The notes under the pieces are model-generated. The model was not told where the DNA came from. It saw nothing but the letters and a program-made list of their open reading frames with translations, and made no database searches. From Verrucomicrobiia bacterium (GTDB lineage: Bacteria; Verrucomicrobiota; Verrucomicrobiia; Limisphaerales; Pedosphaeraceae), in NCBI GenBank assembly GCA_036268055.1, contig DATAUW010000041.1:1-64000 (forward strand): DNA of 64,000 bases, given 5' to 3'. Shown piece by piece: positions 1,659 through 4,629 of this stretch (the stretch's first letter is position 1; each line of letters opens with the position of its first letter). A program made the position numbers and the translations under genes.

Positions 1659-2462
1659 TCAGATTTTTTCGGCCAGAAAAACAATCACTGTCGCGACCGG
1701 GATGAGGAGGACCTGGGCAATGAGGGTTCCCGCCAGTCGGCTGCCGATCATCCATACGACCGCGCGGCGAAACGAAGGTTCGCTGACGCGGCCTTCGACG
1801 ACGTCGTCGGTCATCATGGACATTTGCGGGTCTATGAATACAAACATGAGGACGGTCGCCACGCCGTTCACGACGGATGAAAGGGTGATGGCGGTCATGC
1901 GCAACTCGGGCTTGAGATAACCGGCGTAGAGCGCGGCGACCACGCCGACGGTCCAGACGGCAACGGCGGCGACATTGAGCAGGAGCAACGAGACGGTGAC
2001 GCCCTGCCCCATTCGCAGTTGGGTGACGTTGCCGGAAACGGGAACTTTCATGGAATCTTTCACATAAATGACGCCGCCTCGAAAAAAGCCGTGTAGCAAC
2101 AATGTGGGAATTGAACGGTGGGCTTGAAAATGCAGCACGGCGCGGCTGAAGACGCGTTGAAAGGTCGGAACCAACACGGCGCCGATGGCCGTGGCGAGTG
2201 TCGCCGAAAAAAGCAACCAGCGGAAATCCGCGAGCAGGTTGTGGGAGGCGGCATGGTCGAGGGATTGCTCGACTCGTTTGGCGAGGAAAGTGCCTTGAAA
2301 AGAATTGGAGGTGCGCGAGAGCAGAACGAGCACGTTGAACAGCGCAAAGGACACGGCAATGCGGCGGGTGCGAACGCCCGCGATGCGGACGGAGTAGGCG
2401 AGCGTGCCGATTAAATGAATGATGAACGTGAGGACACAGATCAAAATAAGTTGGCGGTCCAT
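1659..2462 (-). CDS. amj: lipid II flippase Amj family protein
   Basis: The 267-aa product is a polytopic membrane protein with about six to seven hydrophobic segments. Its first 60 residues (IHLIGTLAYSVRIAGVRT, then SFALFNVLVLLSRTSN) match the signature of the Amj/YdaH family. In Bacillus subtilis, Amj is the stress-inducible alternative to MurJ and moves the peptidoglycan precursor lipid II across the inner membrane. The length is close to the family norm of about 270 residues. Function is inferred from the family; no peptidoglycan gene lies beside it, although an M23 hydrolase is 2 kb away. The stop is 215 bp upstream of cysK on the same strand, so the two could share a transcript. Confidence 0.82.
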   Translation of the reverse strand: MDRQLILICVLTFIIHLIGTLAYSVRIAGVRTRRIAVSFALFNVLVLLSRTSNSFQGTFLAKRVEQSLDHAASHNLLADFRWLLFSATLATAIGAVLVPTFQRVFSRAVLHFQAHRSIPTLLLHGFFRGGVIYVKDSMKVPVSGNVTQLRMGQGVTVSLLLLNVAAVAVWTVGVVAALYAGYLKPELRMTAITLSSVVNGVATVLMFVFIDPQMSMMTDDVVEGRVSEPSFRRAVVWMIGSRLAGTLIAQVLLIPVATVIVFLAEKI

Positions 2463-2629
2463 GGGTTGCCTTGAGCTGACGGATTCGCTGCGAGGTCAGG
2501 ATGAGGGAGATGATGGATGGCGTCCATAATATTCAGATTTATCGAGTGAAAGAGTTTTCTCACTAAATGCCTCCATGCTGGCAAACGAGAAGTATCAAGC
2601 GAGTATCAAAGATTTGGTTTCAGGGAGCG

Positions 2630-2730
2630 ATTCTTTCGTCCCGTTGCTGGCGGGACTTGGTTAAGAGGAGACTTTTTCCCAGCAATAAATTGCTGGGCTA
2701 ATATCTGCCGTCCCCTGCGGGACTACGGCG
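2630..2730. repeat. interspersed repeat with nested hairpins (copy 2)
   Basis: This is the second copy of the element at 207-304, with the same block order. It has a CCCAGC/GCTGGG hairpin around AATAAATT and then a CGTCCCC-TGCGGGAC hairpin. It sits just beyond the end of the large RNA locus. The two copies flank cysK and amj in the same orientation. Confidence 0.6.
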
Positions 2731-2796
2731 AGACTTCTCTTACCGCGATTTAGAGTTGCTGGCGTGGCAGGATTTGATTTGAGCTTTCACAATGTT

Positions 2797-2841
2797 AAAA
2801 AAACAAAAAGTCCCCGCCCGATCTTTCGATCAAGCAGGGAC
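2797..2841 (-). terminator. intrinsic terminator of the large RNA locus
   Basis: Read on the minus strand, GTCCCTGC pairs with GCGGGGAC around an inner GATC/GATC stem and a GAAA loop, and is followed by a T-rich tract (TTTTTGTTTTTTT). This fits a Rho-independent terminator for transcription coming from about 3675. Confidence 0.8.
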
Positions 2842-3675
2842 AAATTGGGGATGGGAGTTCGCCGCACTCTCTTTCCCGGGCTGACATTTGGCGCACTTTG
2901 GCTGCCAGCTTCCCGACGCCATTCTCCACGGCAAGCGGAGTTATCGCGGCCTCATAGCAGGGCCGTCCAGCGCTTTACAGTCGCTGAATTTTGAGTGAGG
3001 CCTCTCAGCTCGCTTCGGCTGGCGTTTGCGGACGCCGGCGGGCGAACCAGGTAAAGACACGTTTGTGATTTCGTATCCACGTCTTTACCATTAGCTCCGG
3101 GTCGGCCACCGCTTTTTTCGGTGCGTTGGCCCGGTGCCACGGGTCTGACCTCTTAACTCTCAGGTTGCATTTCGCTCACATGCCAGCGGTGTTTTTTTGA
3201 CATCGCCGACGTTTCGGAAGTTTAACGAGGCTTGCCTGCTCTCGAATTCTTCCCGGGGCGCAGACTCATTTTGTCACGCCTTTCGGCGTTTTTCATTGGC
3301 GCGTTCTTTTGGGGAACGGCCAGAGTTTTGCGCTCCGTGCTGGCGCACAGTAGCAACCATCTACCCTCTGGGTAACTGCGATTCACTCAGGCTCGAAACC
3401 TGCCTGAGCTACTTGACTCGGCTCGGAACGGTTTCTCATCGTTCCTAGCGGCTCAGTTCCTTTTTCGCGTTTACTGGCAGCGCGCGAACGCTGACAGAGG
3501 AACTGGTGAATTCTGCCTCTCCACTTTGCCTTGCGGCTTGGTTGCAGAGGGGTTGGGCCAACCAGCCTGGCTCAACCTTTCCCCAGTCGCCTGGGATTAT
3601 CCTCGAGACTTTCTCCGGTTTTCTTTCGTCCGCCGGGCTCGTCTCGGTTCTTTCAATGAACTGTGAACAGGTTAT
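2797..3675 (-). ncRNA. large structured RNA candidate, about 880 nt, unassigned
   Basis: No convincing reading frame covers this 880-nt interval, yet the minus strand folds into many strong stems and ends at an intrinsic terminator. Examples are CGAGAC/GTCTCG (3641-3646 with 3604-3609), CTCAGGC/GCCTGAG (3402-3408 with 3386-3392) and a nine-pair stem GGTAAAGAC/GTCTTTACC (3050-3058 with 3081-3089), with GNRA-type and UUCG loops between others. The first 410 nt read like a diverged RNase P RNA: GAGAAAGTC early, a CCCAG-GCGA-CTGGG hairpin, GCCAGTAAAC followed by GGAACTGAGCC, and late AATGA with GACAAAA. The normally invariant P4 sequences differ, so I do not assign it. A possible promoter (TTGTTG, 16 bp, TAACCT) lies just upstream. 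The 3' 400 nt are unexplained. Confidence 0.5.
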
Positions 3676-3858
3676 CACTTTTTCTTAATCCAACAATGAA
3701 ATGATATGCACATACTTATTCACCGAAACGGCGCGGTGAGTAAGCGGGGGACAAGTTGATTCATCCAATGTTTACGGGCGCTTTTTGCATTTCACGACCG
3801 GAGTTATTCACCGACAAAAACCTGACGAAAAGCGGGCGGTGAACAACTTGAATCCACG
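3662..3858. promoter_or_regulatory. cluster of DnaA-box-like sites in two inverted repeats
   Basis: Two imperfect inverted repeats are built from TTATTCACC-type 9-mers. The first pairs CTTATTCACCG at 3715-3725 with CGGTGAGTAAG at 3734-3744. The second pairs GTTATTCACCG at 3803-3813 with CGGTGAACAAC at 3837-3847. Each is followed by a related word, TTGATTCATCC at 3756 and TTGAATCCACG at 3848. A further TGTGAACAG lies at 3662. TTATTCACC differs from the DnaA box TTATNCACA at the last base. It could be a DnaA or other repressor site controlling the minus-strand RNA; an origin is possible but unproven. Confidence 0.4.
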
Positions 3859-3892
3859 TTGCGTCAAAAAGCTGGCGAACTTATTGGTACAT

Positions 3893-3917
3893 AAAAAAAC
3901 CGTCCTTGCGGACGGTT
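3893..3917 (-). terminator. intrinsic terminator of the small basic protein gene
   Basis: On the minus strand CCGTCC-GCAA-GGACGG is followed directly by TTTTTTTAT, a textbook Rho-independent terminator. It lies 20 nt past the stop codon of the 38-aa gene at 3937-4053. Confidence 0.88.
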
Positions 3918-3936
3918 CAACGGGATGCGAAATCGC

Positions 3937-4053
3937 TCAGGCTTTCTTGCCCGCGGCCTTGGTTTTGACTTTGGCCTTGGCAGCGTCACCTTTGCGTTTG
4001 ATGTAGGCTGTCCGGCGTTTCCGTTTTTCCGCTTTGTTGTTCTGTTTACCCAT
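3937..4053 (-). CDS. small highly basic protein, 38 aa
   Basis: This short frame encodes 38 residues starting MGKQNNKAEKRKRR and ending KTKAAGKKA, with about 16 Lys/Arg and no acidic stretch. It has a clear ATG, ends 20 nt before a strong intrinsic terminator, and is divergent to the lipoprotein gene at 4105. Those signals make it a real gene despite its size. The composition (basic, unstructured, Lys/Ala-rich tail) suggests an RNA- or ribosome-binding protein, like the small ribosomal extension proteins. I recall similar short MGKQNNK-type proteins in this phylum but cannot name a family. Confidence 0.72.
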   Translation of the reverse strand: MGKQNNKAEKRKRRTAYIKRKGDAAKAKVKTKAAGKKA

Positions 4054-4104
4054 AAGAATGAATCTTTACTTTGTCCGCGCTCTGCGTTTGTTTAGGTGAA
4101 GACT

Positions 4105-4629
4105 ATGATGATTAAATTTATTCGATTCAATACCTATTTGTGGCTCGCGGCGGGCGCGCTGCTGCTGGCCACGGGTTGCAAGACCGGGGACAAGGACAAA
4201 AAACATCCGCTGAGCACGCTGGAATTGCACGCGGAGGTCGGACGGGACAATGGCGGCGATAACGAGATGGTTCCGGTCCTGCGCGAGCATCCGGTTTATG
4301 TGAATGTGGCCAAGGAAACTTTTCTCGACGCGGCGGACATCGTCGAGGCGAACGTGGTGGATGACCTGGGCGGCTTCAAGATCCGCTTGAAGTTCAACTG
4401 GCGCGGGACGCAATTATTGGAGAGCTACAGCACGGCGTATCGCGGGCGGCATATCGCGGTGTTTGCCGTGTGGGGCCCGGCGCGATGGATCGCCGCGCCC
4501 GTGGTGCAGAAACCGATCGCGGATGGGGTGCTGACTTTCACGCCGGATTGCACGCGCGAAGAAGCGGACCGGCTGGTCAAGGGGTTGAACAATGTCGCGG
4601 ATGACATCAAAAAAGAAGAGAAGTTTTGA
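4105..4629 (+). CDS. lipoprotein resembling the SecD first periplasmic subdomain
   Basis: The 174-aa product has a lipoprotein signal ending LLLATGC, so it should be acylated and membrane anchored on the outside of the cytoplasmic membrane. The mature part (VYVNVAKETFLDAADIVEAN, VDDLGGFKIRLKFN, then GVLTFTPDCTREEA) resembles the extracytoplasmic SecD head that precedes its membrane segments. No SecD transmembrane helices follow. The ATG at 4105 was chosen over a GTG nine bases earlier because AGGTGA sits seven bases upstream. The stop overlaps the next gene by four bases, so the two are probably translationally coupled. The export-related role is inferred from resemblance only. Confidence 0.6.
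   Translation: MMIKFIRFNTYLWLAAGALLLATGCKTGDKDKKHPLSTLELHAEVGRDNGGDNEMVPVLREHPVYVNVAKETFLDAADIVEANVVDDLGGFKIRLKFNWRGTQLLESYSTAYRGRHIAVFAVWGPARWIAAPVVQKPIADGVLTFTPDCTREEADRLVKGLNNVADDIKKEEKF

Follow-up and report, generated by a model that had tools for sequence, protein, structure and literature searches.

A MISL RNA gene in a Verrucomicrobiia bacterium: extended ends, added pseudoknots and a DnaA-box-like array suggesting replication-linked control

Introduction

Near the beginning of contig DATAUW010000041.1 of a Verrucomicrobiia bacterium (Pedosphaeraceae, assembly GCA_036268055.1), the minus strand carries an unusual density of strong hairpins. The window analysed here comprises the first 64,000 nucleotides of this contig. 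A sequence-only reading had described positions 2797-3675 as one large structured RNA locus, either a very diverged and extended RNase P RNA or a new large RNA. We ask here which RNA this is, where it starts and ends, how it folds and what might control its expression.

Identity of the RNA

A cmscan search identifies the locus as a MISL RNA (RF03079). The match scores 584.5 bits (E 6.6e-177) against a gathering score of 274.6, and spans the model from end to end (Table 1). Most of the model's base pairs are standard in the window copy, with a minority that are non-standard in the alignment, and the 5.1 Mb source genome contains a single copy. The window locus is a full-length MISL RNA gene and an ordinary member of a known Rfam family. 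The 3' 400 nt, which the sequence-only reading had considered unexplained by any family, are the second half of MISL, and the Infernal search that it had proposed returned a high-scoring, full-length match to a known family, the outcome that it had itself named as making the locus ordinary.

The broader features of that description hold. The locus appears free of protein genes, with open frames of at most 83 amino acids on the minus strand of 2797-3675, and the 868-nt RNA from 3664 to 2797 has a folding energy of -343.5 kcal/mol, compared with a mean of -297.0 kcal/mol for 20 dinucleotide shuffles, none of which was as low (z -5.6). The locus thus encodes a single large structured RNA, about 870 nt long, that has its own terminator, a 14-pair stem (2841-2810) followed by T residues. 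The motifs quoted in favour of RNase P RNA are also present on the minus strand, in an order superficially like that of the RNase P landmarks, and the two RNAs are alike in their size class of complex folded RNA, but a diverged RNase P RNA is as good as excluded, because a permissive Rfam scan of 2600-3800 (E up to 10) matched no RNase P family, the true RNase P RNA gene of the same genome (RF00010, 224 bits) lies separately at contig position 66332-66721, 2.3 kb beyond the window end, and the MISL match is full-length. AGUCUC, which had been taken for a P4 strand, forms the 3' strand of a covarying leader hairpin (P2), in which it pairs locally with GAGAC. The same permissive scan of 2600-3800 returned no match to tmRNA, 6S, OLE, GOLLD or ROOL.

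Distribution of the family

MISL RNAs occur in at least 31 of 387 Verrucomicrobiota genomes (28 above the family cut-off), a lower bound because stricter filters were used. A pattern of 20 specified bases, taken from the most conserved block of the RNA, matches at least 119 stretches of genome_contigs and one 2.3-kb contig in a viral collection; Verrucomicrobiota are named in 80 of 80 titles among the matches listed, and the family HMM matched all 120 pattern-found stretches. The window copy resembles the family in its full-length match, intergenic site and phylum, and differs from the printed Rfam model in a 5' extension of two hairpins, in pseudoknots and in a DnaA-box-like array upstream.

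The family reportedly first came from a 2017 survey of candidate RNAs. In the open-access text that could be searched, the term 'MISL RNA' appears only in the Ribonanza preprint (PMC10925082), where it serves as an example molecule, and RF03079 appears in no paper; no MISL function was found described there. The large ornate bacterial RNAs OLE, GOLLD and ROOL (PMC12286853) are, like MISL, long and highly structured RNA genes.

Ends of the transcript

An alignment of relatives places the start of the RNA about 55 nt before the Rfam model and adds two hairpins, termed P1 and P2. Judged from these relatives, the transcript would begin at 3664 and end at 2797. A sigma-70 consensus scan of 2700-3950 detected no promoter; the candidate core promoter TTGTTG-16-TAACCT was placed by lining up the window with TTGAC-type promoters read by eye in distant relatives. 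The plausible promoter of the earlier description is accordingly weaker than claimed, with a negative scan on one side and this putative site on the other.

Table 1. Features of the MISL locus and its upstream region (window positions)
Feature	Position	Strand	Basis
Predicted MISL transcript, 5' hairpin to terminator tail	2797..3664	-	conserved 5' element; covarying terminator stem in 91 relatives
MISL RNA core, RF03079, model 1-751 of 751	2854..3602	-	cmscan
Intrinsic terminator stem, T-rich tail after	2810..2841	-	14 pairs; stem covaries in relatives
Putative core promoter TTGTTG-16-TAACCT	3669..3696	-	position only
5' hairpin P1, GUUC-AUUGAAA-GAAC	3647..3661	-	outside Rfam model; 96.0% of cells paired, 75 leaders
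Leader hairpin P2, 3646-3641 with 3609-3604	3604..3646	-	outside Rfam model; covariation
Candidate partner of P1 loop (pseudoknot with 3655-3651)	3507..3511	-	variable pair 3652/3510
PKa, hairpin loop 3487-3483 with 3469-3465	3465..3487	-	double changes 18 vs at most 3 slid
PKh, pairs with hairpin loop 3566-3561	3339..3344	-	91.9% of cells paired; double changes 12 vs at most 1 slid
PKb 5' strand, pairs with 3168-3163	3353..3358	-	97.1% of cells paired; double changes 31 vs at most 4 slid
PKb 3' strand	3163..3168	-	as PKb 5' strand
Extra helix Hc, 3326-3323 with 3267-3264	3264..3326	-	double changes 31 vs up to 12 slid
PKd, hairpin loop pairing with 3180-3176	3064..3068	-	96.0% of cells paired; double changes 17 vs at most 2 slid
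PKe, hairpin loop 2958-2954 with 2922-2918	2918..2958	-	96.9% of cells paired; double changes 13 vs at most 1 slid
DnaA-box-like ATATGCACA, about -56	3704..3712	+	class filled in 38/90 loci
DnaA-box-like TTATTCACC, about -67	3716..3724	+	class filled in 21/90 loci
DnaA-box-like TTATTCACC, about -155	3804..3812	+	class filled in 15/90 loci
Weak DnaA-box-like TTACTCACC	3735..3743	-	2 mismatches
Weak DnaA-box-like TTGTTCACC	3838..3846	-	2 mismatches

Pseudoknots and leader structure

Covariation was examined in an alignment of 91 of 95 MISL sequences (effective number 58), in which double compensatory changes were counted on the tree and compared with those of the same pairing slid in register. 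A helix of the Rfam structure, taken as a control, shows 44 such changes against 2 when slid, and the secondary structure comprises helices that covary in the 91 relatives. Beyond the Rfam structure line, five pseudoknots (PKa, PKb, PKd, PKe and PKh) and one further helix (Hc) are supported by compensatory changes. Hc is the least clean of the added helices because of its slid maximum of 12, and the changes that break PKd are nearly as numerous as in its controls (14 against a slid mean of 15.8). Pair-type counts for PKa, PKe, Hc, P2 and the P1-loop pairing are not clearly above shuffles, but the numbers of cells changed on both sides and the covariation scores of these pairings did exceed them. 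Pseudoknots cannot be represented in covariance models, so some of them may already be shown in the Rfam seed or in the paper that founded MISL, and other added features may also be known from that paper.

The leader was aligned separately in 75 sequences, kept by length, end and distinctness. P1 has the family form GUUC-NUUGANA-GAAC, which is nearly invariant and hence beyond covariation testing. P2 shows changes on both sides at six of six pairs, with 83.8% of cells paired; the alignment of 91 sequences supports it less cleanly (24 double changes, slid maximum 15). Taken as a whole, the leader structure has 142 cells with changes on both sides where shuffles give 52.4, and its covariation score of 0.360 compares with a highest slid value of 0.118. 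The P1 loop may also pair with an internal segment at 3511-3507. Here the pair 3652/3510 varies (TA 38, AT 32, CG 6 and TG 4 of 91 sequences), while the remainder scarcely varies or is mismatched at the end; on the tree this pairing has 6 double changes against at most 2 slid, and 16 breaking changes against a slid mean of 12.8.

An array of DnaA-box-like sites upstream of MISL

The region upstream of MISL contains 9-mers close to TTAT[CT]CACA. We counted 73 of these boxes in 6,900 bp upstream of the first 30 loci (28 of which contain them), compared with 3 in 24,000 bp of flanking sequence. The same rule applied to 65 independent loci gave 140 boxes in 14,950 bp, compared with 19 boxes in their flanks (136,233 bp); 58 loci had at least one box, and resampled sequence for this set yielded a mean of 4.1 boxes and a largest count of 9. 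The independent set was drawn from 120 stretches, of which 88 had a complete 5' end and 420 nt of upstream sequence; removal of near-duplicates left 65, four of them without an anchor and one, L157, with a misplaced anchor. Controls were first-order resamplings, in 100 rounds for the 30-locus set and 30 rounds for the 65-locus set. A motif-free count agrees, the commonest upstream 8-mer, TTATTCAC, being present in 72 of 95 loci and in 2 of 805 control windows.

Box positions relative to P1 recur, at about -56, -67, -85, -96, -118, -154 and -187. Position classes were assigned in 90 of the 95 loci, the other five having no usable anchor; the -85 class is filled in 43 of the 90 and the -56 class in 38. 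This recurrence is owed partly to shared ancestry. With any letter allowed at position 5 of the box, one or more boxes are present at 84 of 90 loci and two or more at 76. In the window, the array consists of three 9-mers with one mismatch and two with two mismatches, and two of the four exact TTATTCACM strings in the entire 64 kb lie upstream of MISL.

At genome scale, clusters of three boxes in 250 bp coincide with MISL in four of seven sampled genomes (G018, G274, G091 and G319), and in 676 kb sampled from G018 the MISL cluster is the sole one. No such cluster is found at MISL in G099 and G122, and in G128 one lies about 4 kb beyond it. Close pairs of exact boxes occur at MISL in three of nine genomes (G091, G271 and G274); away from MISL, G128 has two such pairs and G000 one.

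Nine of the 95 loci are box-less (7 of 65 and 2 of 30). Four of these (L016, L139, L167 and L174) fall, together with L216, which has one box, in a separate MISL clade; the others are L011, L145, L146 and L189, which lie outside it, and L221, which is absent from the tree. The genomes of L174 and L016 each carry another MISL, and one assembly holds both L125, with three boxes, and L174, with none. It is possible that this clade represents a paralogue with different control.

Candidate factors binding the array

The recurring placement of DnaA-box-like sites upstream of the promoter points to DnaA as the likely regulator of MISL transcription. The source genome encodes a DnaA with the DNA-binding domain (Bac_DnaA_C, E 1.1e-28), and similar 9-mers lie near dnaA in all eight genomes read, in a count made without a formal control; by coordinates they lie upstream of the gene in seven genomes and inside dnaA in G319. 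The region of L295 and other dnaA regions contain TTATTCACA or TTGTTCACA beside dnaA, often as two copies about 270-300 bp apart. The canonical DnaA box is TTATCCACA; in DnaA boxes any letter may stand at position 5, and A or C usually occupies position 9. Among 257 boxes at MISL, position 5 is T in 200, G in 28, C in 22 and A in 7, and position 9 is likewise mostly A or C.

A different transcription factor with a DnaA-box-like site could occupy the same array, in which case MISL would be a conditionally expressed RNA unlinked to replication. The commonest 9-mer at MISL, TTATTCACC, ends in CACC and outnumbers the canonical forms; the letters flanking the boxes also recur, for example AAGTTATT in 40 of 95 loci, and the inferred origin of G018 has no box cluster against which the MISL box could be calibrated. 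The ending of the commonest 9-mer and the clusterless G018 origin leave room for such a factor. Against it stand the letters at positions 5 and 9, which follow the rule for DnaA boxes, and the similar 9-mers beside dnaA, and we regard this alternative as unlikely, although it is the strongest of those considered.

The array might instead be a DnaA reservoir of the datA or DARS kind, or an origin, with MISL as a passenger. This reading draws on G091, G271 and G274, where all close exact box pairs of the genome sit at MISL. It is opposed by the spacing between boxes and the MISL 5' end, which recurs in distant families, by an inconstant distance from MISL to dnaA, between about 0.16 and 2.2 Mb in single-contig genomes, and by GC skew. 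In profiles of 12 genomes, taken in 5-kb bins, the skew does not change sign in a sustained way at MISL; the set includes four genomes that are noisy near zero (G274, G122, G128 and G023) and one with just 3.6 kb on one side of MISL (G000), and in G091 the skew shifts from about -0.2 to almost zero roughly 10 kb past MISL. In all three genomes sampled for its chromosomal place (G018, G099 and G091), MISL falls within the terminus half, at roughly 81-87% of the distance that separates the skew minimum from the far point, a placement that assumes the usual sign of the skew. Coding-strand bias gave no clear support for this sign, and the strand of rpoB/rpoC in G091 agrees with it, in a region of weak skew. 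In G018 and G099, about 1 Mb or more separates dnaA itself from the skew minimum. A location of MISL at the replication origin is rejected on the 12 skew profiles and the position of all three placed copies away from the minimum, and the chance that the array is a reservoir or origin appears slim.

The 5' element and boxA

A further reading takes the conserved 5' element, GUUCNUUGANAGAAC, as a boxA, at which a NusB/NusE complex would carry polymerase through a long structured RNA as in rRNA operons. Similar strings do occur in rRNA leaders of the same genomes: GTTCTTTGAAAG is present in both the rrn leader and the MISL of G158 and G119, and in G319 the rrn leader string GATCTTTCACAG stands against GATCTTTGACAG at MISL; the rrn leader of the source genome has GCTCTTTGAAAA. 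In G158 and G119 the MISL element shares 12 of its 13 letters with the rrn boxA-like string; in the source genome it shares 9 of 13. These leaders were located with a 16S rRNA pattern, which found the gene in 9 of 19 genomes and was used in place of a covariance search that succeeded in 1 of 8; ten leaders were reduced to eight, as L312 had 105 nt upstream and L310 was a chance match in a protein gene, and a second rrn copy of G319 was examined apart from the ten. Position 5 distinguishes the two sets, being T in all eight readable rrn leaders and C or A in 73 of 90 MISL elements, and the P1 stem, possibly together with the pairing between its loop and 3511-3507, accounts for the 5' element. 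The loop pairing and the letters at position 5 lower the weight of boxA; the conserved letters are largely owed to P1 and its loop pairing, and boxA is disfavoured as an improbable reading of the MISL 5' element.

Neighbouring genes

Genes within 3.5 kb on each side of MISL (1.5 kb for the first 30 loci) were surveyed in the 95 loci, and the counts are lower bounds. In Opitutales-type loci, a HrpB-type helicase is encoded upstream in at least 37 of 95 and TypA/BipA downstream in at least 23 of 95. In loci of the window type, the corresponding neighbours are a lipoprotein-like gene (at least 17 of 95) and an M23 peptidase (at least 15 of 95). Names were checked on one example each, with Pfam for the window genes, of which that at 4096-4626 has a SecDF P1-head domain, and with Pfam and NCBIfam for partial stretches of L010, whose best matches, HrpB and TypA, score below curated cut-offs, as fragments would be expected to. 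No single neighbour gene is common to all clades among the 95 loci, from which we consider that MISL probably acts in trans.

Several other features adjoin the window copy. Downstream, the gene at 1659-2462 (minus strand) matches Amj, 'Alternate to MurJ' (PF10997, E 7.4e-97), and between it and MISL lies an Acido-Lenti-1 element (RF01687), which occurs twice in the window, at 251-296 and 2678-2724 (both plus strand). Genome-wide, Acido-Lenti-1 has at least 118 matches (150 of 1333 candidates were scored), several less than 1 kb from contig ends; given this number and placement, it behaves as a dispersed palindromic repeat and not as single RNA genes. A repeated string in G158, GATCTTTGAGAGAA, occurs nine times on several contigs, several copies being near contig ends. 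Just upstream of the MISL promoter region, a very basic open frame of 38 amino acids was read by eye at 3937-4053 (minus strand) and is followed by a terminator-like stem at 3918-3897.

Possible role of MISL

MISL is, in our view, probably a free-standing, trans-acting RNA whose transcription is under DnaA control and so coupled to replication or growth. Transcription from a promoter of sigma-70 type, immediately upstream of 3664, would yield an RNA about 870 nt long. This RNA would open with the two hairpins outside the Rfam model, fold, on the covariation described above, into a compact and multiply pseudoknotted body, and end in its own terminator. DnaA bound at the recurring upstream sites would control this promoter, and under such control the level of MISL would follow DnaA activity, that is, the replication or growth state of the cell; the RNA would then act in trans. 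The leading suggestion for its task, made with low confidence, is a stable RNA by which some growth-linked protein machine is bound or sequestered; a ribozyme or antisense role is possible.

No large structured RNA under DnaA control was found described in the open-access literature searched, and the nearest precedent met there is CcnA of Caulobacter crescentus, a noncoding RNA tied to replication control. CcnA (PMC8959179) is 182 nt long, lies at the origin and is presumably activated by CtrA, whereas MISL is about 870 nt long, is away from the origin and belongs to a different phylum.

What this analysis adds is comparative: the extended ends, the pseudoknots and an upstream DnaA-box-like array suggestive of replication-linked control. 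Were MISL indeed driven by DnaA, part of this phylum would couple a large pseudoknotted RNA to the initiator of replication, and the RNA would feed back on replication or growth, a prospect that we raise tentatively. For an orphan RNA family, the array and the pseudoknotted fold together provide a set of testable claims: the array offers a first testable idea of how MISL may be controlled, through DnaA binding and cell-cycle expression, and the fold is one that can be probed.
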